In this document: in pieces, positions 1-10,445 of the stretch
Numbering within the stretch: position 1 is the stretch's first letter
Layout of the letters: every line of letters starts with the position of its first letter
Origin: Fidelibacterota bacterium TMED108
Lineage (GTDB): Bacteria; Fidelibacterota; Marinisomatia; Marinisomatales; TCS55
DNA length: 16,341 nucleotides
Assembly (NCBI GenBank): GCA_002172545.1
Contig: NHFJ01000015.1
Span: 24,631 to 40,971 of the forward strand
Direction of reading: 5' to 3'
Made by a program: the position numbers and the translations under genes
The notes under the pieces: model-generated
What the model was told of the DNA's origin: nothing
The model's database searches: none
The model's input: the letters and a program-made list of their open reading frames with translations, nothing else

Positions 1-626
1 TTAGAAATGTCTACGGGAAAATGTGGAACAGCTTGAGCTCCATCTATTAATGTTACAACTCCTCTAGATTTAGCAAGCTCGATAATTTTTGACACAGGAT
101 TAATTGTGCCAAAGACATTTGACTGGTGAACCATAGCTAGCATACCGATATCATTTAAATCTGTTTCAATGGATGATAAGTCAAGCATTCCATTTTTTTG
201 CAATGGTAGGTATTTTAATTTCGAGGAAGTTTTTTCTGAAGCCATTTGCCATGGGACTAAATTGCTATGATGCTCCATCTCAGTAACCAAAATTCCATTC
301 CCCTTATTAAGGTTACCGCTTCCCCATGAATAAGCTACTAGATTTATTGATTCTGTTGAGCTTCTGGTAAAAATTACTTCGTGCGAATCAGGAACATTTA
401 GAAATCTCTTTACCTTATCTCTTACGCTTTCAAATTCATTGGTGGCTTTTTCGCCAATCTCATAAAGAGCACGGTGAATATTGGCATTGTAATTAGAATA
501 AAAAGAAGAAACAGAATCTATTACGCATTGAGGTTTTTGAGTAGTTGACGCCGAATCAAGGTATACCAGACCCTTTCTTTCGTGAAAAATAGGAAATTCC
601 TCACGAATATGGTCTGCGTTTAACAT
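1..626 (-). CDS. sufS: Cysteine desulfurase SufS, partial (C-terminal half beyond window)
   Basis: PLP-dependent cysteine desulfurase that takes sulfur from cysteine as a persulfide and passes it through SufE to the SufBCD scaffold. Translating from the ATG at 626 gives 208 residues (MLNADHIREEFPIF...) before the window ends; the family is about 400 residues, so roughly half is present. Visible landmarks are YLDSASTTQKP (about 22-32), the EMEHHSNLVPW motif (116-126) with the histidine that stacks on PLP, and IDGAQAVPHFPVD (194-206) with the PLP-contacting Asp195 and Gln198. The PLP lysine and the catalytic cysteine lie beyond the edge, so type I or II cannot be decided. The start codon overlaps the sufT stop as TAATG, with an AGGGA ribosome site about 7-8 nt upstream. 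It is the last visible gene of the operon. The family assignment is secure; SufS rather than another class-V desulfurase rests mainly on operon context. Confidence 0.93.
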   Translation of the reverse strand, partial: MLNADHIREEFPIFHERKGLVYLDSASTTQKPQCVIDSVSSFYSNYNANIHRALYEIGEKATNEFESVRDKVKRFLNVPDSHEVIFTRSSTESINLVAYSWGSGNLNKGNGILVTEMEHHSNLVPWQMASEKTSSKLKYLPLQKNGMLDLSSIETDLNDIGMLAMVHQSNVFGTINPVSKIIELAKSRGVVTLIDGAQAVPHFPVDIS

Positions 627-1180
627 TAAAGCATCCCTAATTGTAATTTCGCAGATTCATTAATCATGTCTCTATCCCAGGGTGGATCCCATACTAGTTC
701 AACAGCTACTTCAGCTGTTCCAGGGATTCCTTCAATTTTTTGTTTTACTTCTCCCGCGATCATATCTCCCATTCCACAGCCGGGTGCTGTTAGAGTCATT
801 TTAATATCAACATTTGTTCCGCTATTTTTATTATCTTTAAGTTCGCAGGAGTAAATCAAGCCTAGGTCAACAACATTGACTGGAATCTCAGGATCGTAGC
901 ATGTTTTCATTGCTTCCCAAACAGCTTTTTCGTTTGCTTTTCCATCTTTTTCTGTTTCTTCCAGCCACGGTTGAACTTCAGGTATTTTCCCAATTGCATC
1001 AGCATCAACTCCTTCAACTCTAACCAGATTACCGCGAACCATGACAGTATATGACCCACCGAGAGCTTGCGTGATATGCCCTTCTTCCCCTTTTTTTAAG
1101 GTAATTTTATTTCCAAAAGGGATTAGCGTTGCTTCACAATCTCGCTCAATAGTTACTTGTTCATCTATATCTGAATACAT
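626..1180 (-). CDS. sufT: SufT, MIP18/DUF59-family Fe-S assembly protein
   Basis: 184-residue protein matching the SufT layout: an N-terminal segment of about 80 residues (with LGGSYTVMVRGNLVRVEG near 40-57) followed by a MIP18/DUF59 domain (about 85-184). The DUF59 signatures are CYDPEIPVNVVDLGLIY, the MTLTAPGCGMGDMI segment with the conserved cysteine, and VWDPPWDRDMI. SufT proteins support maturation of Fe-S proteins, probably as accessory or carrier factors; their chemistry is not settled. The gene starts 2 nt after the sufE stop, with an AGGA ribosome site 5 nt before the ATG, and its stop overlaps the sufS start. A second, shorter DUF59 protein is encoded near the front of the same operon (5463-5840). 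Confidence 0.9.
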   Translation of the reverse strand: MYSDIDEQVTIERDCEATLIPFGNKITLKKGEEGHITQALGGSYTVMVRGNLVRVEGVDADAIGKIPEVQPWLEETEKDGKANEKAVWEAMKTCYDPEIPVNVVDLGLIYSCELKDNKNSGTNVDIKMTLTAPGCGMGDMIAGEVKQKIEGIPGTAEVAVELVWDPPWDRDMINESAKLQLGML

Positions 1181-1182
1181 AA

Positions 1183-1593
1183 TTATCCTAATATCTCTTT
1201 TTGAATTTTGTTTATAGCATTACTAAATCCGTTCGTTCTTTGAGAGCTAATTGCTCGATCAAGACCAACAGACTCTAAAAATTTACTGCCGTCAATTTTA
1301 ATTATCTCACCAGCGGAATGCCCATTAAATGAACGCTCGATTAACGATAATAAGCCCTTAACTATCATTGCGTCAGAATCAGTTTTAAAATAAAGCTGAT
1401 CATCTTTATTCTCTCTAACAACCCATGCTTGCGATGTGCAGCCTTGAACTCGATTGTTTTCAAGTTTATCATTTGGAGGTAGGCCCTTTGATGCTTTCGC
1501 AAGATCTACTAGATATATATATTTGTCGCGAGGATCTGAAAAAATGGAAAACTCTTCTCTGATTAAATCTAATTTTTTATTTATGTCAGACAT
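1183..1593 (-). CDS. sufE: SufE sulfur-transfer protein
   Basis: 136-residue SufE. It accepts the persulfide from SufS on a conserved cysteine, stimulates SufS turnover and delivers sulfur to SufB. The acceptor is Cys52 in the motif VQGCTSQAWV, matching E. coli Cys51 in position and surroundings. Length is normal for the family (about 138). The ATG at 1593 overlaps the sufD stop (TAATG), so translation is probably coupled; there is only a weak purine-rich stretch upstream. It lies between sufD and sufT, separated from its partner sufS by sufT. Confidence 0.95.
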   Translation of the reverse strand: MSDINKKLDLIREEFSIFSDPRDKYIYLVDLAKASKGLPPNDKLENNRVQGCTSQAWVVRENKDDQLYFKTDSDAMIVKGLLSLIERSFNGHSAGEIIKIDGSKFLESVGLDRAISSQRTNGFSNAINKIQKEILG

Positions 1594-2882
1594 TATTTCA
1601 ATATCTTCTCTAACTGCTGCGACGCGATTTTGTTTAAATATTCACCAATATCTTCGTTTTTTATTAATTCAAGGATATCTGATATGAATCCATTCATAAT
1701 CAGCTCCATAGACTTCTCATGTCCTAAGCCTCTTGATTTTAAGTAAAACAAAGCTTCTGGATCAATCTGTCCAGTTGTAGATCCATGAGAGCATTTGACG
1801 TCTTCCGCATAAATTTCTAATTGAGGATTCGCATTCATAAGAGCAGATGGGCTTAATACTAAATTTTTATTTGACTGACTAGCATCTGTACGTTTTGTAT
1901 GCTCCTCTACAATAACTTTTCCATTAAAAACTCCTGAAGATTGATCAGATAATATATATTTGAATAGTTGATTGCTTTGACATGCATCACTCATATGTTC
2001 AACTATAATATGCTGATCATGATGCTGCTGATCATTAATTAATGAAAGCGCGCTATAATCTGCACTAGAGCTATCGCCGCAAAATTTTAGTTTTATGTTA
2101 TGCCTAAAGAGTGAACTGCCAAGTGACACACTATTAACATTTAGATTACTATCTTTATTCAAATCATAAAAGGTGTTGGCAACATGATGAGACATTTCTG
2201 ATTCTTCTTGGATGCGAATGTGGTTCACAAAAGAATTTTCTCCTAGTTCAACCTTCGTAACTGAATTGTTAAAATATGGAGTGGAGGTTGAACCAATGTA
2301 ATGTTCAACAACAGTAGCTTCTGAATTATTTCCAAATTGAAACACAAAACGCGGATGATTCATTATTTCACTTGTAATGGATGTCGTAAGATATATTATT
2401 TGAATGGGTTTAGTTATTTTTGCATTATCTTTAATATGAATGCTTAATCCAGAATTCATCATAGAGGTGTTAAGCATATAAAAAGGATTTAAGCCTCTAT
2501 CTTGATGTGATTGTACGCTTTTTAATGATTGGTAGTTAAAATCTGAGCTAAAGTGATCTGCACCTGAGGCAACTTTAGCCTCATCAGGTATATCTGATAA
2601 ATTCGGTTGGTAATATCCATTAATTGAAACAATAAGATATGTATTTGGAATTCTACCAGGTAAAAGTCCAGTAAGCTCAACAGCATCACTTAAAGAAGAA
2701 AGGCGAAAATCACCTTTTTCAATAAAAGAAAAATTTGTGAATTGCCAATCTTCCCACTTATTAGTTGGTAGACCCTTATCAATAAAATTTTCAAACGACT
2801 TTTTTCTTAGATCAGTGAGCTCGTCGTTTTCATTATTAATTGAATCCAGTAGAGTGTCAAATTCATCTCGAAAATATTTCAT
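1593..2882 (-). CDS. sufD: SufD, scaffold component of SufBC2D
   Basis: 429-residue SufD, the SufB paralogue that pairs with it in the SufBC2D scaffold where Fe-S clusters are built. The C-terminal core is well conserved: YAEDVKCSHGSTTGQIDPEALFYLKSRGL (about 358-386). It contains Cys364 and His366, the latter matching the E. coli SufD histidine (His360) implicated in iron handling. The N-terminal 250 residues are more divergent, as usual for SufD. The start overlaps the sufC stop as ATGA and the stop overlaps the sufE start, indicating translational coupling. The assignment is clear from domain and position after sufB-sufC. Confidence 0.95.
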   Translation of the reverse strand: MKYFRDEFDTLLDSINNENDELTDLRKKSFENFIDKGLPTNKWEDWQFTNFSFIEKGDFRLSSLSDAVELTGLLPGRIPNTYLIVSINGYYQPNLSDIPDEAKVASGADHFSSDFNYQSLKSVQSHQDRGLNPFYMLNTSMMNSGLSIHIKDNAKITKPIQIIYLTTSITSEIMNHPRFVFQFGNNSEATVVEHYIGSTSTPYFNNSVTKVELGENSFVNHIRIQEESEMSHHVANTFYDLNKDSNLNVNSVSLGSSLFRHNIKLKFCGDSSSADYSALSLINDQQHHDQHIIVEHMSDACQSNQLFKYILSDQSSGVFNGKVIVEEHTKRTDASQSNKNLVLSPSALMNANPQLEIYAEDVKCSHGSTTGQIDPEALFYLKSRGLGHEKSMELIMNGFISDILELIKNEDIGEYLNKIASQQLEKILK

Positions 2883-3619
2883 GATTCTAACCAGGAATAT
2901 CCTTTTTTCTCAATTTCTTGTGCTAATGATAAGTCTCCGGATTTAACGATCTTTCCATTAATCAATATATGGATGAAATCGGGCTCCATATATTCAAGTA
3001 GGCGTTGGTAGTGTGTAATTGCTATAAATGAGCGAGACGCATTACGAAAATTATTAACGCCTTTTGCAACAATTTTAAGTGCATCAATATCTAATCCTGA
3101 GTCTGTTTCATCTAATATGGATAGCTTTGGCTCAAGAGTAAGCATCTGCAAAATTTCATTTCGCTTTTTCTCTCCACCTGAAAAACCATCATTAACTGCC
3201 CTACTTAAGTATTTCTCATCCATATTGACTAACTTTAATTTTTCGCGGATGAGACGCATAAAGTCAGCAGCATTTATTTCTTTTTTTCCATGATGCTTTA
3301 GCTGCGCATTTAAAGCGGCTCGTAAAAAATATGTATTGTTAACACCAGGTATGACAACGGGATATTGAAAAGACATAAATATGCCCTCAAGAGCACGATC
3401 TTCTGGAGCCAATTCTTCTAGGTCTAGTCCATTGAATTTTACTTCACCAGAGGTTATTTCATAATTATCACGTCCAGTAATTATATTTGCAAGTGTACTT
3501 TTCCCAGAACCGTTTCTACCCATTACAGCATGCAATTCACCGGGATTTACTTTTAAATCTAGGCCATTTAAAATAGTTTTTCCTTTTACGCCAGCGTGTA
3601 AATTTTTTATTTCTAACAT
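2879..3619 (-). CDS. sufC: SufC, ABC-type ATPase of the SUF scaffold
   Basis: 246-residue soluble ABC ATPase that binds SufB and SufD and drives the conformational change needed for cluster assembly. Motifs in order are Walker A GRNGSGKST (34-42, Lys40), Q-loop Gln85 in MSFQYPVVIPG, the ABC signature FSGGEKKR (146-153), Walker B LSILDE with the D-loop (166-171 and following) and the H-loop His203 in AITHYQRLL. The FSGGEKKRNEILQM stretch is diagnostic of SufC rather than a transporter ATPase, and no membrane partner is encoded nearby. It starts 26 nt after sufB, with no strong ribosome site, and overlaps sufD by 4 nt. Confidence 0.97.
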   Translation of the reverse strand: MLEIKNLHAGVKGKTILNGLDLKVNPGELHAVMGRNGSGKSTLANIITGRDNYEITSGEVKFNGLDLEELAPEDRALEGIFMSFQYPVVIPGVNNTYFLRAALNAQLKHHGKKEINAADFMRLIREKLKLVNMDEKYLSRAVNDGFSGGEKKRNEILQMLTLEPKLSILDETDSGLDIDALKIVAKGVNNFRNASRSFIAITHYQRLLEYMEPDFIHILINGKIVKSGDLSLAQEIEKKGYSWLES

Positions 3620-3645
3620 TTCATACCAATTTTAATTGTTGAACA

Positions 3646-5094
3646 TTATCCAACAGCGCCCTCAAGACTAACTTCCATTAATTTTTGAGCCTCAACTGCA
3701 AACTCCATAGGAAGTTCATTAAATACTTTTTTACAAAAACCGTTGACTATCATTGAAACAGCATCTTCTGTAGATACCCCTCTTTGGTTGCAATAAAAGA
3801 GCTGATCTTCACCAATTCGCGATGTTGATGCTTCGTGCTCCATCTGAGCTGACGGATTTCTTACATCAATATAGGGGAAAGTATGCGCTCCGCATTCATC
3901 GCCTATCAGAATTGAATCGCATTGAGAATAATTTCGTGCGTTTTCAGCGCCTTTCATTATCTTAACGCCACCGCGGTATGTATTTTGCCCTTTTCCAGCT
4001 GAAATTCCTTTTGAGATAATAGTGCTCTTTGTGTTCTTGCCTATGTGAATCATTTTTGTTCCTGTATCAGCTTGCTGAAAATTATTTGATAGAGCAACTG
4101 AATAAAATTCTCCAACCGAATTGTCACCCTTGAGAATGCAGCTAGGGTACTTCCATGTTAATGCTGAGCCAGTCTCAACTTGTGTCCAAGAAATCTTTGA
4201 ATTATCGCCAAGACAATTCCCTCTTTTTGTAACAAAGTTATATATACCACCTTTACCGGTTTTTGGATCACCGGGATACCAATTTTGAACTGTCGAATAT
4301 TTAATTTCAGCATTATTTAGAGCAACGAGCTCAACTACAGCTGCGTGAAGTTGGTTCTCATCTCTCATTGGAGCTGTACATCCTTCTAAATAACTAACAT
4401 GACTATCGTCTTCAGCAATTATAAGAGTGCGTTCAAATTGACCTGTTTTTGCAGCATTTATCCTAAAATAGGTTGATAGTTCCATCGGACATCTAACACC
4501 CTTAGGTATGTAGACAAAACTTCCATCACTAAAAACGGCGGAGTTTAATGCGCCAAAGTAATTATCAGATACTGGGACTACGCTCCCAAGGTATTTTTTT
4601 ACAATGCCTGGATGACTTTTAACCGCTTCTGAAAAAGAACAAAATATTACACCATGTTTTTGAAGCTCCTCTTTAAAAGTAGTGGTGACTGACACGCTAT
4701 CAAAAACAGCATCTACCGCAACATTTGATAACATTTTTTGCTCTTCCAGTGGAATGCCAAGCTTGTCATAGGTTTTTAATAGCTCAGGGTCAACCTCATC
4801 CAAGCTTTCAAGTTTTTTTTGTTTTTTTGGAGCAGAATAATATGAAATTTTCTGGAAATCAATTTTGGAATAATTAAGTTTTGACCAATCCGGTTCTTTC
4901 ATTTCAAGCCATCTATTGTATGCTTTTAATCTCCAGTCAAGAAGCCATTCAGGCTCATCCTTTTTTGCGGATATAAATCTGATTACATCTTCATTTAGTC
5001 CCGGCGGTATAGTGTCTTGTTCAATATCTGTAGTAAAGCCGTACTCATATTCTTGCTCTATTGCAGAATCAATTATTTGTTGGTTTTTACTCAT
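3646..5094 (-). CDS. sufB: SufB, main Fe-S scaffold subunit
   Basis: 482-residue SufB, the subunit on which SufE delivers sulfur and the nascent cluster forms together with SufD. It is strongly conserved along its whole length, including [17 protein letters not shown] near the start and the C-terminal run [20 protein letters not shown] (about 426-445). Cys239 (EGCTAP) corresponds to the sulfur-accepting cysteine of E. coli SufB and Cys392 (SQCDS) to the essential cysteine near the SufD interface. The EHEA motif is at 419-422. Length is normal (E. coli 495). The ATG is 6 nt after the sufA stop, with no clear Shine-Dalgarno sequence, so it may depend on upstream translation. Confidence 0.97.
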
Positions 5095-5100
5095 CTAAAA

Positions 5101-5463
5101 TCAGGCTGAAAAAGAGGTCCCACAGCCACATGTCCTTTCTGCGTTAGGATTAACAATCTTGAATCCACCGTTAAGAATATCATTTGAAAAATCAATTTTG
5201 ACACCCTTTAGGTATAGGTAGCTTTTTAAATCACAAAAAATCTGCATACCTTGACTTTCAAATACTTTATCAAATTCTTTTTGTTTTTCTTCAAAAGACA
5301 TATCGTAGTTCAAGCCAGAACAACCACCGGTTGTTACTTCCATTCTAAGGCCAAATCCTTTTTTGCCTTCTGATTCCATAACGGCACTTAACCGCTCGGC
5401 TGCTTTTTTAGACATTTTAATTCCTGCATCAAAAATTTCTTTTGTTGTCGCTGAATCGCTCAT
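5101..5463 (-). CDS. sufA: A-type Fe-S carrier (SufA/IscA/ErpA family)
   Basis: 120-residue A-type carrier that receives clusters from the SufBCD scaffold and passes them to apo-proteins. The three signature cysteines are Cys48 in TTGGCSGLNY and Cys112 and Cys114 in ERTCGCGTSF. I chose the ATG at 5463 (MSDSATTKEIFD) rather than a GTG 9 nt upstream, because a GAGGAG ribosome site lies just upstream and the ATG overlaps the preceding DUF59 stop as TAATG. Naming it sufA rather than iscA or erpA is based on its place directly before sufB; sequence alone does not separate the subfamilies. Confidence 0.93.
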   Translation of the reverse strand: MSDSATTKEIFDAGIKMSKKAAERLSAVMESEGKKGFGLRMEVTTGGCSGLNYDMSFEEKQKEFDKVFESQGMQIFCDLKSYLYLKGVKIDFSNDILNGGFKIVNPNAERTCGCGTSFSA

Positions 5464-5840
5464 TATTCCCACTCCTCATCTATTTTAATGTGTTCATGGT
5501 TATCAGGTTTAACTATACCCAGCCCCAATTTTTTCTTTGCCTCATCAGTTATCATCTCCGGATTCCATGGTGGTTCAAAGGTGACTTCTACAAAGGCTTG
5601 ATTAACACTGTTAAGTGCCTCGAGTTTGTTTCGAACGTCTTGAGAAATTTGATCTCCCATAGTACAGCCTGGTGTTGTTAAAGACATTATAATATTTATA
5701 TCTGATTTTGTTTCATCATATGCTTCTTGGATCTGAATATCGTAAATGAGACCAAGATTCCAGAGATCAACTGGAAGCTCGGGATCAAAGCATTGTTTTA
5801 AAACATTAACCACTTCATCTTTTTGAATTAAATTTTTCAT
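5463..5840 (-). CDS. Small MIP18/DUF59 protein of the SUF operon
   Basis: 125-residue protein made almost wholly of one MIP18/DUF59 domain, like the YitW/PaaD-type 'metal-sulfur cluster biosynthetic' proteins. The motifs are CFDPELPVDLWNLGLIYDI, MSLTTPGCTMGDQI with the conserved cysteine, and VTFEPPWNPEMI. A role in Fe-S maturation follows from family and context; no specific client can be named. The frame stays open upstream to 5960, but that stretch overlaps the regulator gene. The ATG at 5840 instead gives an ATGA junction with the regulator stop, a GGAGAT ribosome site with a 6-nt spacer, and a protein starting right at the domain. The stop overlaps the sufA start. It lacks the extra N-terminal segment of SufT, encoded later in the operon. 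Confidence 0.88.
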   Translation of the reverse strand: MKNLIQKDEVVNVLKQCFDPELPVDLWNLGLIYDIQIQEAYDETKSDINIIMSLTTPGCTMGDQISQDVRNKLEALNSVNQAFVEVTFEPPWNPEMITDEAKKKLGLGIVKPDNHEHIKIDEEWE

Positions 5841-6235
5841 TGAGTTATCTCCATGAGGGTAGTTTTTGAGAACATATCCCGCATATTTTGATTGATTCTC
5901 TGAAGAGGAGTAAGAATATTGCATGACTTCATTTGCAAACAATCTGTATTGAAATAACAATCCATTAGGCCAAGGGGCCCCTCAAGTTTTTCAAAAAAGT
6001 CTTTTAGAGAAATCTTGTCTAAATCTGCTTTAATTTTGTAGCCACCAGCTGGACCTTTCAGTGCTTGAATTAAATTATCTCTGGCCATTTGTTGGAGTAT
6101 TTTAGCTAGGAGGTGTTGGGGGATTCCGTATTGTGTAGCAATCTCGGTTGTACTTGAAACAGAATGCTCTGAAGCTTGCTGCATGTGACGCAGTGCTATA
6201 AGGGCATATTCTACTTTTCGTGTGATTTTTAACAT
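5837..6235 (-). CDS. iscR: Rrf2-family Fe-S transcriptional regulator, IscR-like
   Basis: 132-residue Rrf2-type winged-helix regulator and first gene of the SUF operon. The N-terminal DNA-binding part is typical (KITRKVEYALIALRHM, then IPQHLLAKILQQMARDNLIQALKGPAGGYKI). Cys93, Cys99 and Cys105 follow the C-x5-C-x5-C spacing of the [2Fe-2S] ligands of IscR (Cys92, 98, 104), so it probably senses Fe-S status. The exact IscR histidine ligand is not obvious after Cys105. A site matching most of the E. coli IscR type 1 operator lies 58-82 nt upstream (6293-6317), suggesting it represses its own operon when loaded with cluster. It overlaps the next gene by 4 nt (ATGA). Family assignment is firm; IscR-like behaviour is inferred from the cysteines and the site. 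Confidence 0.9.
   Translation of the reverse strand: MLKITRKVEYALIALRHMQQASEHSVSSTTEIATQYGIPQHLLAKILQQMARDNLIQALKGPAGGYKIKADLDKISLKDFFEKLEGPLGLMDCYFNTDCLQMKSCNILTPLQRINQNMRDMFSKTTLMEITQ
5847..5852 (-). promoter_or_regulatory. Ribosome binding site deciding the small DUF59 start
   Basis: GGAGAT on the minus strand, 6 nt before the ATG at 5840 and inside the 3' end of the Rrf2 gene. It supports the ATG at 5840 over the longer open frame that would begin at 5960 and run deep inside the regulator gene. Confidence 0.7.
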
Positions 6236-6240
6236 TTTTA

Positions 6241-6255
6241 CTGCTTTCGAAGCAG
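6241..6255 (-). promoter_or_regulatory. Small hairpin in the leader just before the Rrf2 start
   Basis: Perfect 6-bp inverted repeat (CTGCTT / AAGCAG) around a 3-nt loop, ending 5 nt before the ATG at 6235. It covers the place where a ribosome binding site should lie, and no good Shine-Dalgarno sequence is otherwise visible. It could modulate translation of the regulator or be chance; it is too short and lacks a U run for a terminator. Confidence 0.4.
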
Positions 6256-6292
6256 GTAAATTTAATGATCAGGAAATTGGACTACAACAACT

Positions 6293-6317
6293 ATATACGA
6301 CTATTTTAATCGTATAT
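6293..6317 (-). promoter_or_regulatory. Candidate IscR type 1 operator / promoter of the SUF operon
   Basis: 25-bp near-palindrome. On the minus strand the half-sites ATATACGATT and AGTCGTATAT flank a 5-nt AAAAT spacer. The E. coli IscR type 1 consensus as I recall it is ATA-N3-GACT-N5-AGTC-N3-TAT. Both outer triplets, the spacing and one core half match exactly, and the other core half has one mismatch (GATT for GACT). Perfect 9-bp arms (6292-6300 and 6310-6318) surround it. It sits in the only gap upstream of the operon; a TATAGT or TATATA element overlapping its downstream edge could be the -10. The match is seen directly; binding by the neighbouring regulator is inferred. Confidence 0.68.
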
Positions 6318-6325
6318 AAAATATA

Positions 6326-7375
6326 CTAATATATTTTTACCAATTCTGAAGATTTAGAGGTTACTTTACCAATAATATGAGCTTTAATTTCTGATTTTGA
6401 ATTAAAGGTGTTGAGGTAACCCTCTGCCTCTTTTTCTGGAATCGATATTAGCAATCCGCCTGATGTTTGAGAGTCGGACAACATCAATCGTTGAGAAGCA
6501 GTGATGTGATCAGAGTATCTGCAATAACCTGAGGCATGATCGTGATTTCGTCTTGAGCCAGATGGAACGAACCCCTCATTTGCGAGCTGCTCTACTCCAG
6601 GAAAAAACGGTATATTTTTAAAATCTAACTTTGCAGAAACACCGCTAGATTTACACATTTCAATTAAATGACCGAGAAGACCAAAACCTGTAATGTCTGT
6701 AGCTGCATTAACTTTAAATTTCTGCATTATTTTCGCAGCATCCTTGTTTAACGTTTTCATTGATTCAATGGCCGTTTTTTCTAGCTCATTTTGTATATGC
6801 TCTTTCTTAGTGGCAGTTGACACTATACCAGTTCCAATTGGTTTTGTTAAAACTAGGCTATCACCAGCCATGGATCCGGAATTGCGAATCAGCATATTTT
6901 CATGAACCTCGCCATTAACCACCATGCCGTATTTTGGTTCTTTATCGTCTACAGAGTGACCGCCAAGGATAGGTATTCCTGCTTCGTTTGCTTTGTCAGA
7001 CCCTCCCTTAAGTATTTGAGCCGCAACTTCTTTCGGCAAGTCTTTAATTGGAAAACCAAAAATATTCAGCGCAAAAGTAGGGGTTGCTCCCATAGCGTAG
7101 ATGTCAGACAGTGCATTTGCTGCAGCAATCTGTCCAAAAGTGTAAGGATCATCAACGATGGGTGTAAAAAAATCTACAGTTTGAACCAAAAGCTTTTCAC
7201 CGGAGGTTCGTACTACAGCCCCGTCATCATTTTCACCAAAACCAACAATAACATTTTCATTGTTTTCGCTTTTTAAGTTGCTCAGAACCTGAGCAAGGTC
7301 CTTCGGACCAATTTTACATGCTCATCCAGCTCCATGAGAATATTGCGTAAGTTTTATTTTATTAAAAGATTTCAT
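6326..7375 (-). CDS. selD: Selenide, water dikinase SelD with in-frame UGA selenocysteine
   Basis: SelD makes selenophosphate from selenide and ATP for selenocysteine and selenouridine synthesis. Read from the ATG at 7375 through an in-frame TGA at 7324-7322, the product is 349 residues, close to E. coli SelD (347). The TGA is codon 18 in KLTQYSHGAG-U-ACKIGP, aligning with catalytic Cys17 of E. coli (SHGAGCGCK); known SelD proteins carry Cys or Sec here. The next residues Cys20 and Lys21 keep the CxCK-like pattern as U-A-C-K. Downstream are DDGAVV (about 50-55), ALSDIYAMG with Asp92, GGHS (138-141), DITGFGLLGH with Asp227, and SDSQTSGG (300-307). The frame is open everywhere else, and an in-frame TAA lies directly before the ATG. 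A TTG at codon 63 would give only a 287-residue fragment without the active site. UGA is a normal stop in neighbouring genes, which favours recoding over reassignment. Confidence 0.93.
7278..7324 (-). promoter_or_regulatory. Bacterial SECIS-like region: UGA codon and following hairpins
   Basis: Directly after the UGA (7324-7322) the coding strand can form two hairpins. The proximal one is GGTCC-GAA-GGACC (7309-7297, loop at +18 to +20 after UGA), with an outer TGAGCA/TGCTCA helix (7324-7319 with 7295-7290) that includes the UGA. The distal one is TTGCTCAG-GTT-CTGAGCAA (7296-7278), 8 perfect base pairs with loop at +34 to +36. Bacterial SECIS elements are reported to lie within the ORF with an apical loop roughly 16-37 nt after UGA and a G among its first two bases; both loops satisfy this. 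The outer helix and the distal hairpin share bases and cannot coexist. Which is recognised by SelB cannot be told from sequence alone. Confidence 0.6.
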
Positions 7376-7580: not shown

Positions 7581-9425
7581 ATGAGCCATGCTACTCAACA
7601 AGTTGATGAAGTTGTTATTCGATTCGCTGGTGACTCTGGAGATGGTATGCAGCTTACTGGCGGACGCTTCACGGACACAACGGCAATTGTTGGTAATGAT
7701 TTAAGTACGCTTCCAGATTTTCCTGCAGAAATTCGCGCTCCCGCTGGATCTCTTGCAGGTGTCAGCGCTTTTCAAATAAAGTTTAGTTCAAAAGATATCC
7801 ATACTCCCGGAGATACTCCTGATGTTTTGGTAGCGATGAATCCAGCGGCGCTTCAGGTTCATCAAAAAGAAGTAAAGCCTGGTGGTACAATCATATGTAA
7901 TGCTAATGCTTTTACTCCAAAAAATTTAAAACTTGCAGGCTATGAGTCCAACCCGCTTGAAGATAAAACGCTAGATGATTATTTCACTGTATATGCAATT
8001 GAAATGGGAAAAATGGTCTCGCTTGCATGTGAGGGGTTAGACCTATCCTCAAAAATTGTAGATAGATCTAAAAACCTTTATGCATTGGGACTGCTTTTCT
8101 GGATATACGATAGGCCTTTGCAACCAACAAAAGATTGGTTAGAGGTTAAATTTGGTAAAAAACCGGAACTGGTTGAAGCAAATGTTAGATCTCTTGAGGC
8201 TGGTTACAACTTCGGAGATACTACTGAAATTTTTACTACACGTTACAAGGTTGATAAAGCAAATCTTCCCCCTGGTAAATATAGAAATGTTATTGGAAAT
8301 AATGCACTTTCAATGGGGTTAGCCGCCGCAGCAGAAAAATCAAAACTAGGAATGTTTTTTGGTGGATATCCTATTACCCCGGCTAGCGATATATTGCATA
8401 CCTTGTCCGCTTGGAAGCATCTTGGTATTAAGACTTTTCAGGCAGAAGATGAAATTGCTGGAATTACTTCAGTAATAGGCGCTGCTTTCACTGGAAATCT
8501 TGGTGTAACTGCTACATCTGGTCCGGGTATAGCGCTTAAAAGCGAAGCTATGGGCTTGGCGGTTATAGCAGAATTACCTTTGGTGGTTATTAATGTTCAA
8601 AGGGGAGGTCCAAGCACTGGTCTTCCAACAAAAACGGAGCAATCCGATCTCCTTCAAGCTATGTATTGTAGAAACGGAGAGGCGCCATTACCGGTACTTG
8701 CATCTTCAACGCCAGGCGATTGTTTCTTTGCTGCGTATGAGGCTTGCAGGATAGCGGTAAAATACATGACACCAGTTGTTTTGCTAACCGATGGTTATTT
8801 AGCTAACGGTTCAGAGCCTTGGCAAATTCCTGCTTTAAAAGATTTGCCAGACTTCAAAGTAAAATTTGCAGATAAGTCTAATATTTCAGATGGTCAGTTT
8901 ATGGCATACTTAAGAAATAAAGATACGCTAGCGAGGCCCTGGGCAATTCCCGGGTCAAAAGGCCTAGAGCATCGAATAGGTGGAATTGAAAAAGAAGATG
9001 TTACTGGTAACGTAAATTATGATCCAGACAATCATCACCATATGGTTAAAACCCGCGCACAAAAAGTTGAAAATATTGCAAATGAATTCGGTCCAACAGA
9101 AATTTTTGGAAAGAAGAGTGGAGATTTGCTTATTTTGAGTTGGGGTGGAACTATGGGCGCATGTAGGTCTGCAGCTGAGGCACTTCAAGGTGAAAAACTT
9201 AAAGTTAGTCACTTGAATTTGCGCTGGATCAACCCCTTTCCAAATGATCTTGGAGAAATCTTAATTAAGTTCAAAAATATTTTAATACCAGAAATTAACA
9301 ATGGGCAGTTAATCAAAATGATTCGCGCTGAATACTTGGTTGATGCTAAAGGATTAAACCTTGTTAGGGGTAAGCCCATTAGTTCAGCTGATATTCAGGA
9401 ATCAGTAAAAAAATTAATAGGATAA
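7581..9425 (+). CDS. korA: 2-oxoglutarate/2-oxoacid:ferredoxin oxidoreductase, fused gamma-alpha subunit
   Basis: 614-residue subunit of a thiamine-dependent 2-oxoacid:acceptor oxidoreductase, which interconverts 2-oxoacid plus CoA with acyl-CoA, CO2 and reduced ferredoxin. Residues 1 to about 195 form the gamma (CoA-side) domain (VVIRFAGDSGDGMQLTGG near the start). From about 235 on is the alpha domain with GGYPITPASD (261-270; YPITPAS is the alpha-subunit signature), AEDEIAGI and ATSGPGIALKSE. This gamma-alpha order is the arrangement of bacterial KorA-type two-subunit enzymes. Translation starts at an ATG with AAGGA 7 nt upstream. korB starts right after the stop. KorA (2-oxoglutarate) rather than another oxoacid is favoured by architecture and by the downstream fumarase, but substrate cannot be proved here. 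Confidence 0.9.
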   Translation: MSHATQQVDEVVIRFAGDSGDGMQLTGGRFTDTTAIVGNDLSTLPDFPAEIRAPAGSLAGVSAFQIKFSSKDIHTPGDTPDVLVAMNPAALQVHQKEVKPGGTIICNANAFTPKNLKLAGYESNPLEDKTLDDYFTVYAIEMGKMVSLACEGLDLSSKIVDRSKNLYALGLLFWIYDRPLQPTKDWLEVKFGKKPELVEANVRSLEAGYNFGDTTEIFTTRYKVDKANLPPGKYRNVIGNNALSMGLAAAAEKSKLGMFFGGYPITPASDILHTLSAWKHLGIKTFQAEDEIAGITSVIGAAFTGNLGVTATSGPGIALKSEAMGLAVIAELPLVVINVQRGGPSTGLPTKTEQSDLLQAMYCRNGEAPLPVLASSTPGDCFFAAYEACRIAVKYMTPVVLLTDGYLANGSEPWQIPALKDLPDFKVKFADKSNISDGQFMAYLRNKDTLARPWAIPGSKGLEHRIGGIEKEDVTGNVNYDPDNHHHMVKTRAQKVENIANEFGPTEIFGKKSGDLLILSWGGTMGACRSAAEALQGEKLKVSHLNLRWINPFPNDLGEILIKFKNILIPEINNGQLIKMIRAEYLVDAKGLNLVRGKPISSADIQESVKKLIG

Positions 9426-10445
9426 ATGATGTCAAATACTAAAGAAACAACCTACACAAGAAAAGATTTTACCTCTGATCAGGCAGTGCGTTGGTGCCCT
9501 GGTTGTGGTGATTATTCTATTTTAGCTCAAACCCAAAAAGTATTCCCGGACCTTGGTAGAAAAAAAGAAGACTTTGTTTTTGTTTCTGGGATAGGTTGCT
9601 CAAGTCGCTTTCCTTACTATATGGATACGTTTGGATTTCATACCATTCATGGAAGGGCGCCTGCCGTAGCAAGCGGTGTCAAGTTAGCAAATCCGGACCT
9701 TTCTGTTTGGGTTGTTACCGGTGATGGAGATGCACTCTCTATCGGAGGAAATCATACTATCCATATGCTTAGAAGAAATATTGATCTCAATGTAATGTTA
9801 TTTAATAATCGTATTTATGGATTAACTAAAGGCCAATATTCTCCAACATCAGAAGTTGGTAAAGTTACAAAATCTACCCCAATGGGTTCTTTAGATGCTC
9901 CTTTTAATCCTCTGTCTCTAGCGCTTGGCGCAGGAGCTACTTTTGTTTCTCGAACTTTAGATAAAGAATCAAAGCATATGCAGGATATAATTACCCAATC
10001 GTATAAACATAGAGGAACTTCATTTATTGAGATTTATCAAAATTGTAATATTTTCAATGACGGCGCTTTTTCATCCTTAACAGATCGCGATACAAAGTCT
10101 GATACTGTTTTATTGCTGGAGGATGGCCAGCCTATGGTTTTTGGCGCTGAAAAGAATAAAGCAATCAGGCTCGATGGAAATGTTCCTAAGGTTTTTGAGA
10201 TTGGAGATAAACTAACTATTGATGATGCATTGGTTCACGATAAAAAAGATTATGTAATTGCATCTTTATTGGCGAATATGACATATAATCCTGATTTCCC
10301 AGAGCCACTAGGGGTTTTTTATGCAATCGATATGCCAACCTATGAAGATTTAATGGTTGATCAGATCGAAGATGCTATTAAAAAGAAGCCAAAAGGCTCT
10401 GTTCAGCAATTGTTAGATTCGGGTGATAATTGGGTAGTTAAGTAG
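9426..10445 (+). CDS. korB: 2-oxoglutarate/2-oxoacid:ferredoxin oxidoreductase beta subunit
   Basis: 339-residue beta subunit that binds thiamine diphosphate and a [4Fe-4S] cluster. The TPP motif is TGDGDALSIGGNH (98-110), ending in NNRIYGLTKGQ (127-137). Cys24 and Cys27 (WCPGCGDY), Cys58 (GIGCSS) and Cys207 (YQNCNIF) reproduce the four-cysteine cluster pattern of the family. Two tandem ATGs follow the korA stop: 9426 abuts it directly and 9429 is one codon later. AGGA at 9419-9422 gives a better 6-nt spacer to 9429, so the true protein may be one residue shorter. No ferredoxin gene lies beside it. The cluster makes it a likely client of the SUF system encoded across the intergenic region. 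Confidence 0.91.
   Translation: MMSNTKETTYTRKDFTSDQAVRWCPGCGDYSILAQTQKVFPDLGRKKEDFVFVSGIGCSSRFPYYMDTFGFHTIHGRAPAVASGVKLANPDLSVWVVTGDGDALSIGGNHTIHMLRRNIDLNVMLFNNRIYGLTKGQYSPTSEVGKVTKSTPMGSLDAPFNPLSLALGAGATFVSRTLDKESKHMQDIITQSYKHRGTSFIEIYQNCNIFNDGAFSSLTDRDTKSDTVLLLEDGQPMVFGAEKNKAIRLDGNVPKVFEIGDKLTIDDALVHDKKDYVIASLLANMTYNPDFPEPLGVFYAIDMPTYEDLMVDQIEDAIKKKPKGSVQQLLDSGDNWVVK

Follow-up and report, generated by a model that had tools for sequence, protein, structure and literature searches.

A selenocysteine-type selD gene in a Marinimicrobia genome with the complete selenocysteine machinery, and a candidate two-hairpin recoding signal behind its UGA

The selD gene of a Marinimicrobia (SAR406) MAG is almost certainly a selenoprotein gene, in which SelB would direct the insertion of selenocysteine (Sec) at an in-frame UGA and the resulting Sec-SelD would supply the selenophosphate for its own synthesis. 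The UGA is conserved among relatives, the genome carries the complete Sec machinery, and the mRNA 3' of the UGA contains more structure than coding constraint accounts for. The window, i.e., the whole stretch of 16,341 nucleotides that was analysed, corresponds to positions 24631-40971 of contig C15 of the MAG (G000), whose assembly comprises 1,314,030 bases (1.31 Mb) in 35 contigs and is 76.55% complete with 3.55% contamination. The sequence retrieved from contigs C15, C19, and C30 contains dispersed, for the most part single, Ns (8 to 98 per stretch), which perhaps represent masked variable positions; the window itself contains none. The features discussed here, in window coordinates, are the following.

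6326 to 7375, minus strand: selD (selenide water dikinase), 349 residues, with Sec predicted at codon 18
7322 to 7324, minus strand: UGA, codon 18 of selD, probably read as selenocysteine
7297 to 7309, minus strand: hairpin 1 of the putative bSECIS, GGUCC-GAA-GGACC, 13 nt, starting 12 nt after the UGA
7278 to 7296, minus strand: hairpin 2, apical and putatively SelB-binding, UUGCUCAG-GUU-CUGAGCAA, abutting hairpin 1
5837 to 6235, minus strand: rrf2-family regulator, the next gene after selD, in an order conserved in relatives
626 to 5960, minus strand: Fe-S assembly genes (paaD/sufT-like, hesB, sufB, sufC, sufD, sufE, sufT-like), downstream of selD
crossing the window edge after the suf genes, as seen in the adjoining stretch: sufS-like cysteine desulfurase gene
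7581 to 10445, plus strand: korAB, subunits of a 2-oxoacid:acceptor oxidoreductase, divergent from selD and a conserved neighbour in relatives

The selD frame begins with an ATG at 7375, places 17 codons before the TGA, and then remains open to a TAG at 6326, yielding 349 residues; translation bears out the original prediction in each of these respects. The product scores 414 bits against the SelD profile TIGR00476 (equivalog cut-off 125) and 390 bits against the NCBIfam equivalog NF002098 (cut-off 299), and in an ungapped stretch of alignment its residue 18 pairs with residue 17 of PDB 3u0o, the Cys in SHGAGCGCK. This structure, which we take to be E. coli SelD, thus locates the UGA at the catalytic Cys, as had been predicted. 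The earliest ordinary start 3' of the TGA is, again as predicted, a TTG at 7189 (codon 63), from which a mechanical caller produces a 287-aa ORF. It had also been claimed that automated callers would lose the active site in this way. The claim holds for the mechanical caller; by contrast, RefSeq annotation obtained via PLSDB runs across the TGA in both of the Sec-selD plasmid records inspected, so not every automated pipeline shortens the gene, and the remark was too strong as worded. That remark apart, the interpretation of selD as a UGA-recoded selenoprotein gene is supported, and the predicted Sec-type selD is confirmed as a real feature at the level of sequence.

Conservation of the TGA was surveyed in 101 genomes drawn from the organism's own genome, genus, family, and order. 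SelD matches were found in 81 of these, and 78 of the 81 have a TGA-bearing match (a count of one-TGA SelDs that includes some short pieces); the remaining three comprise two genomes with pieces outside the site (G025 and G078) and one, G068, whose only match lies in a frame of 742 aa free of stops. Among the 102 matches of the SelD search, 82 carry exactly one TGA, which argues that this codon is neither chance nor a base error; of the rest, 15 are remote paralogues whose identity does not exceed 29%, and five are stop-free SelDs (three in long frames and two pieces short of the site). The position of the TGA was confirmed in all 30 loci from the order-level search, the locus of the window included. 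Alignment of codon 18 with related SelDs, which had been suggested as a check, places the UGA at the homologous position in 106 of 110 loci, the other four having Cys (L054, L099, L132, and L134); L060 was left out, as it does not cover the site, and the sample is skewed to Sec forms because its 80 public loci are best matches to a Sec-SelD, so the TGA share is no base rate. For 223 reference prokaryote genomes, the published share of Sec forms among SelD genes is 19% (PMC4561486). The MAG is assigned to Marinimicrobia from its nearest named loci, the closest of which (L084) belongs to a Candidatus Marinimicrobia MAG, with 77% identity in SelD and 96% in KorA. Throughout the locus alignment, the active-site loop is conserved both before and after the TGA.

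These counts bear directly on the simplest alternative, namely that a nonsense mutation or an assembly error has interrupted the gene, leaving just the downstream part to be made from the codon-63 TTG. Such a broken gene would fit the 287-aa ORF of the mechanical caller and an assembly containing scattered Ns, albeit Ns that all lie outside the window. It sits badly with TGA-bearing matches in nearly every genome that has a SelD match (78 of 81), with TGA as codon 18 in 76 of the 79 loci that were aligned from named public genomes (a sample skewed to Sec), and with an active-site loop kept on both sides of the TGA, and the probability that we would assign to it is minute. Likewise, genome-wide reassignment of UGA, so that it stands for Trp, Gly, or Cys, would explain a selD frame that is open across a UGA. 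Among the 15 tabulated genes of the window, however, TGA is the stop of sufC, hesB, and rrf2 (TAA or TAG ends the other 12), from which it follows that the genetic code is not reassigned, as the original prediction had maintained. TGA also ends selA on contig C30, family matches of the remaining window genes that were scanned required no TGA read-through, the genome has a tRNA-Sec together with SelA and SelB, and a conserved structure lies 3' of the UGA. Reassignment is therefore scarcely credible, and a Sec-encoding UGA is the preferred reading.

The prediction that the genome would also encode SelA, SelB, and tRNA-Sec agrees with profile and RNA searches, all three being found in the same MAG on contigs C19 and C30. 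The tRNA-Sec gene on C19, with the anticodon tca (UCA), scores 64 bits, the gathering score being 47. On C30, selB scores 350 bits (cut-off 242), its product carrying the C-terminal winged-helix domain PF09107, and the adjoining selA scores 525 bits (cut-off 268). Across the survey, selA exceeded its cut-off in 70 of the 81 genomes with a SelD match relative to five of the 20 without (Fisher p 2e-7, for genomes that are not independent); its absence from the other 11 of the 81 may possibly reflect incompleteness.

A search for other UGA-containing ORFs, as had been recommended, revealed two in the same genome: a SelW-like (Rdx) gene with the motif CNKU (C13:98557-98769; L149) and a peroxiredoxin with the motif TSGU (C7:100174-100560; L154), the latter being one of nine AhpC-TSA family matches in the MAG. 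SelW-like matches occurred in seven of eight genomes searched, and all eight matches have one TGA. The families searched were SelD, FdhA, SelW-like, Prx (AhpC-TSA), and AhpD/CMD, so the selenoproteome given here is partial. Formate dehydrogenase, which had been named as an example of such an ORF, was rejected as a partner, since TIGR01591 gave no match in the MAG (at 76.55% completeness) or in G002, G003, and G004 of its genus; FdhA matches were obtained in nine of 14 genomes searched, none of them listed with an internal stop. AhpD/CMD (PF02627) was likewise absent from the MAG at that completeness, and was found in two of eight genomes searched, both times with a TGA. As for selenouridine, ybbB (TIGR03167) was not found in the 76.55%-complete MAG, and among eight genomes searched it exceeded the cut-off in G002, G003, and G004. 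According to a 2006 survey, Sec-decoding organisms without FdhA all had a Sec-SelD (PMC1794560), a rule that the MAG fits, having a Sec-SelD and no FdhA match. A machinery that mainly serves SelD itself, with SelD as the sole selenoprotein, would be in keeping with the missing formate dehydrogenase, and the SelD of H. mustelae has been described as that organism's only selenoprotein (PMC4607533). This reading was rejected once the same genome had proved to contain a SelW-like and a peroxiredoxin gene, each with a UGA in the motif typical of its family, and very little probability remains for it, provided that at least one of the two is expressed.

Several variations on SelD content were encountered among the relatives. 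Three genomes possess two TGA-bearing, near full-length SelD genes each (G002 on C14 and C31, G022 on C5 and C18, and G054 on C191 and C132). Stop-free SelDs occur in frames of 737-748 aa in G061 (C50), G067 (C252), and G068 (C193), in the first two alongside a TGA-bearing SelD, and these long frames resemble published Ndh-SelD fusions (PMC2398784), making them candidate fusions only. In genus g22 of family f15, all 14 small genomes (0.7-1.0 Mb) are without a SelD match and without selA over the cut-off, as might be expected of a reduced lineage that has given up selenium. Finally, matches to SelD in phage and plasmid collections, which served as controls, were all below 60% identity, and among viral contigs a single stretch matched, which is no relative.

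The minimum-energy fold of the RNA 3' of the selD UGA consists of exactly hairpins 1 and 2 (-16.9 kcal/mol; z -2.19). Folds of seven single sequences gave z from -1.28 to -2.86, which is modest relative to shuffled sequences, and hairpin 2 is missing from the best fold of L096. Pairing was also scored across a Marinimicrobia set of 38 distinct sequences (L059 and L070 included) and a set of 66 from other phyla, against two null models: a redrawn null, in which synonymous codons are drawn anew by the gene's own usage, and an exchange null, in which sequences that share a residue swap their codons for it. For hairpin 2, the Marinimicrobia set gives 7.18 of 8 pairs, relative to 4.92 with redrawn codons (maximum 5.39) and 6.88 with exchanged codons (maximum 7.08); in the other phyla it forms 5.79 pairs vs. 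4.63 and 5.01 (maximum of the latter 5.26), respectively. Hairpin 1 reaches 4.45 of 5 pairs in the Marinimicrobia set vs. 3.45 redrawn (maximum 3.68), and is too invariant there for the exchange test (mean 4.42, maximum 4.45); in the other phyla it forms 3.53 pairs vs. 2.65 redrawn and 3.37 exchanged (maximum 3.50). RNA structure 3' of the UGA thus exceeds what coding constraint produces.

Covariation was measured in 25 of 106 sequences, hand-picked for diversity and partly for showing the hairpins; in this set, 87.7% of cells pair and the covariation is 0.286 as opposed to 0.104 when shuffled (0 of 500 shuffles reaching it), whereas every slid version of the same 25 stays at or below 49.5% pairing and 0.092 covariation. 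In unselected sets, pairing also drops on sliding. The clearest covarying pair joins columns 33 and 43 of alignment A1, in the forms U-A, C-G, G-C, A-U, and U-G, and connects the third base of a codon (mostly Ala) with the first base of another, which encodes Gly or Ser in most Marinimicrobia and also Cys or Arg elsewhere. Within hairpin 1, A-U replaces U-A at columns 18/26 in three of the 25, together with a change from Asp to Val, and C-G replaces G-C at columns 17/27 in one of the 25. Cys-containing SelDs offer a further control, for which 14 loci were scored and two (L135 and L144) dropped as TGA forms, leaving 12 that are few and mostly GC-rich; their values of 2.92 pairs for hairpin 1 and 4.42 for hairpin 2 are weaker than those of Sec-SelDs. 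One of these 12 combines a first stem of 4 bp or more with a following one of 5 bp or more, relative to 36 of 38 and 40 of 68 Sec-SelDs (base-shuffle means of 2.06, 5.36, and 8.72 for the sets of 12, 38, and 68). In the registers tried, 22 of 106 Sec-SelDs have no 4-bp hairpin-1 stem, and hairpin 1 is thus common rather than universal. An Rfam search of 601 bases at E up to 10 returned no SECIS family among its six hits, all of them below gathering scores.

It may be asked whether hairpin 2 alone matters, with hairpin 1 arising incidentally from codon preference and the conserved GPxDL peptide. Hairpin 1 does overlap that peptide, codon exchange fails to separate it from the null in the Marinimicrobia set, and the 22 Sec-SelDs without it have just been mentioned. 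Codon preference, on the other hand, does not recover the observed pairs when synonymous codons are redrawn (3.45 vs. 4.45), the Gly codon of hairpin 1 is GGT in 37 of the 38 Marinimicrobia-set sequences (AAC stands there in the remaining one), paired changes are seen across phyla at columns 18/26 and 17/27, and the Cys-SelDs score low for this hairpin. A passive hairpin 1 is accordingly a minority possibility, though one to be taken seriously, and a contribution of both hairpins is favoured.

In the published bSECIS model, an apical loop of 3-9 nt with G within its first two positions tops an upper stem of 4-16 bp, at a UGA-to-loop distance of 16-37 nt (PMC13188914). Hairpin 2 fits this description, having 8 bp and the loop GUU at a distance of 33 nt from the UGA. 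Unlike the single stem-loop of the model, the selD element has an additional 13-nt hairpin between the UGA and the apical hairpin, abutting the latter, and this intervening hairpin has support of its own. As the model, in its published outline, does not forbid such a hairpin, the selD element is treated here as a variant. Subtraction of the 13 nt of hairpin 1 from 33 nt leaves 20 nt, near the distances seen for the other two UGA genes of the genome, where the loops of the best-scoring candidate hairpins of a simple scan lie 22 nt (SelW-like) and 21 nt (Prx) after the UGA; hence the proposal that hairpin 1 serves to maintain the customary spacing of the SelB hairpin. The picture in relatives is partly the same: a distance of 22 nt ranks within the top three for four of four SelW-like loci and first for three, and 21 nt is top in five of eight Prx loci, the other three having 17 nt as the top distance in two and second in the third. 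It is tempting to suggest that Sec-selD mRNAs of many phyla carry a distinct, spacing-compensated and coaxially stacked two-hairpin bSECIS, in which hairpin 1 folds out some 13 nt and hairpin 2 acts about 20 nt from the UGA, rather than a single stem-loop; we would give this generalization an even chance. Since hairpin 2 alone satisfies the published model, the spacing model is a refinement and not a necessity. The titles and abstracts of the literature searched contain no description of a two-hairpin SECIS; figures of SelD structures in the supplements of PMC4561486 (SM6.1) and PMC4607533 (S6) were outside this comparison, so an earlier description is possible.

The following mechanism can be proposed. 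On a ribosome that has reached the UGA at codon 18 of selD, selenocysteine would be inserted by SelB, loaded with Sec-tRNA-Sec and docked on the hairpin further downstream; that hairpin 2 is the binding site is suggested by the C-terminal winged helix of SelB and by the apical loop. Hairpin 1, for its part, would fix the spacing, such that with it folded out hairpin 2 works from the customary position about 20 nt past the UGA. In the resulting SelD, Sec would replace the catalytic Cys and the enzyme would make selenophosphate, which SelA would use to form Sec-tRNA for SelD itself as well as for at least the SelW-like protein and the peroxiredoxin.

The surroundings of selD are also conserved. 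Excluding the locus of the window, korA lies near selD in 36 of 39 Marinimicrobia-set loci and rrf2 in 30 of 39 (L025-L053, L055-L061, L070, L084, and L086, of which L025 and L084 are apparently the same locus); several of the loci without korA or rrf2 are short or have a flank of only 1.5 kb. The order korAB / selD-rrf2-suf, which spans 626-7375 of the window on its selD side, is thereby seen to be kept in Marinimicrobia and, together with the two-hairpin reading, is the least expected part of this work. The position of selD beside Fe-S genes that include a cysteine desulfurase suggests a possible link to selenium supply. As an aside, the paaD-like ORF at 5463-5960, which has a TTG start, overlaps rrf2 (5837-6235), and an internal ATG at 5840 is its likelier start.

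Sec-SelD is already known as a common marine selenoprotein (PMC2398784). At the protein level, the present SelD shows no difference from the Sec-containing SelDs of PMC4561486, which it resembles in family, in the position of the UGA, in a SECIS-like structure within the coding region, and in the genomic Sec machinery; the host here is a Marinimicrobia MAG. The Sec redefinition element (SRE) of eukaryotic selenoprotein genes, treated in the same source, is likewise a stem-loop close to a UGA that possibly favours recoding, whereas the present predicted structure belongs to a bacterial gene and has a SelB-type hairpin directly behind it. The abundant families of the marine GOS selenoproteome include SelD, with 357 Sec sequences, as well as SelW-like (CxxU) and Prx (TxxU) (PMC2398784), and all three occur in this MAG; the GOS sequences are metagenomic, whereas here the three families are found in one MAG together with selA, selB, and tRNA-Sec. 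No description of selenium in Marinimicrobia or SAR406 was found in the titles and abstracts of the literature searched. Table 1 of a 2016 survey does list three SAR406 single-cell genomes as orphan-SelD organisms (PMC5029168), which share phylum and selD with the present MAG and differ from it in that the MAG has the full Sec machinery. Among the genes that Section 12 of that survey reports near orphan selD are those for ABC ATPases (PF00005) and for cysteine desulfurases (PF00266), classes represented in the present cluster by sufC and the sufS-like gene, respectively. Incompleteness together with the suf operon may explain the orphan-SelD entries of the three SAR406 single-cell genomes.

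Taken as a whole, the complete selenocysteine trait is present in a Marinimicrobia (SAR406) genome, along with what would be a self-dependent Sec-SelD, and the TGA-bearing SelD is common to most of its order-level relatives, which provides a possible reason for the listing of three SAR406 single-cell genomes with an "orphan" SelD. The analysis also yields a concrete, if proposed, model of the selD recoding signal, a two-hairpin element whose first hairpin would set the distance of the second from the UGA. This signal is the part that merits experiment, and the model is open to synonymous mutants in a reporter.
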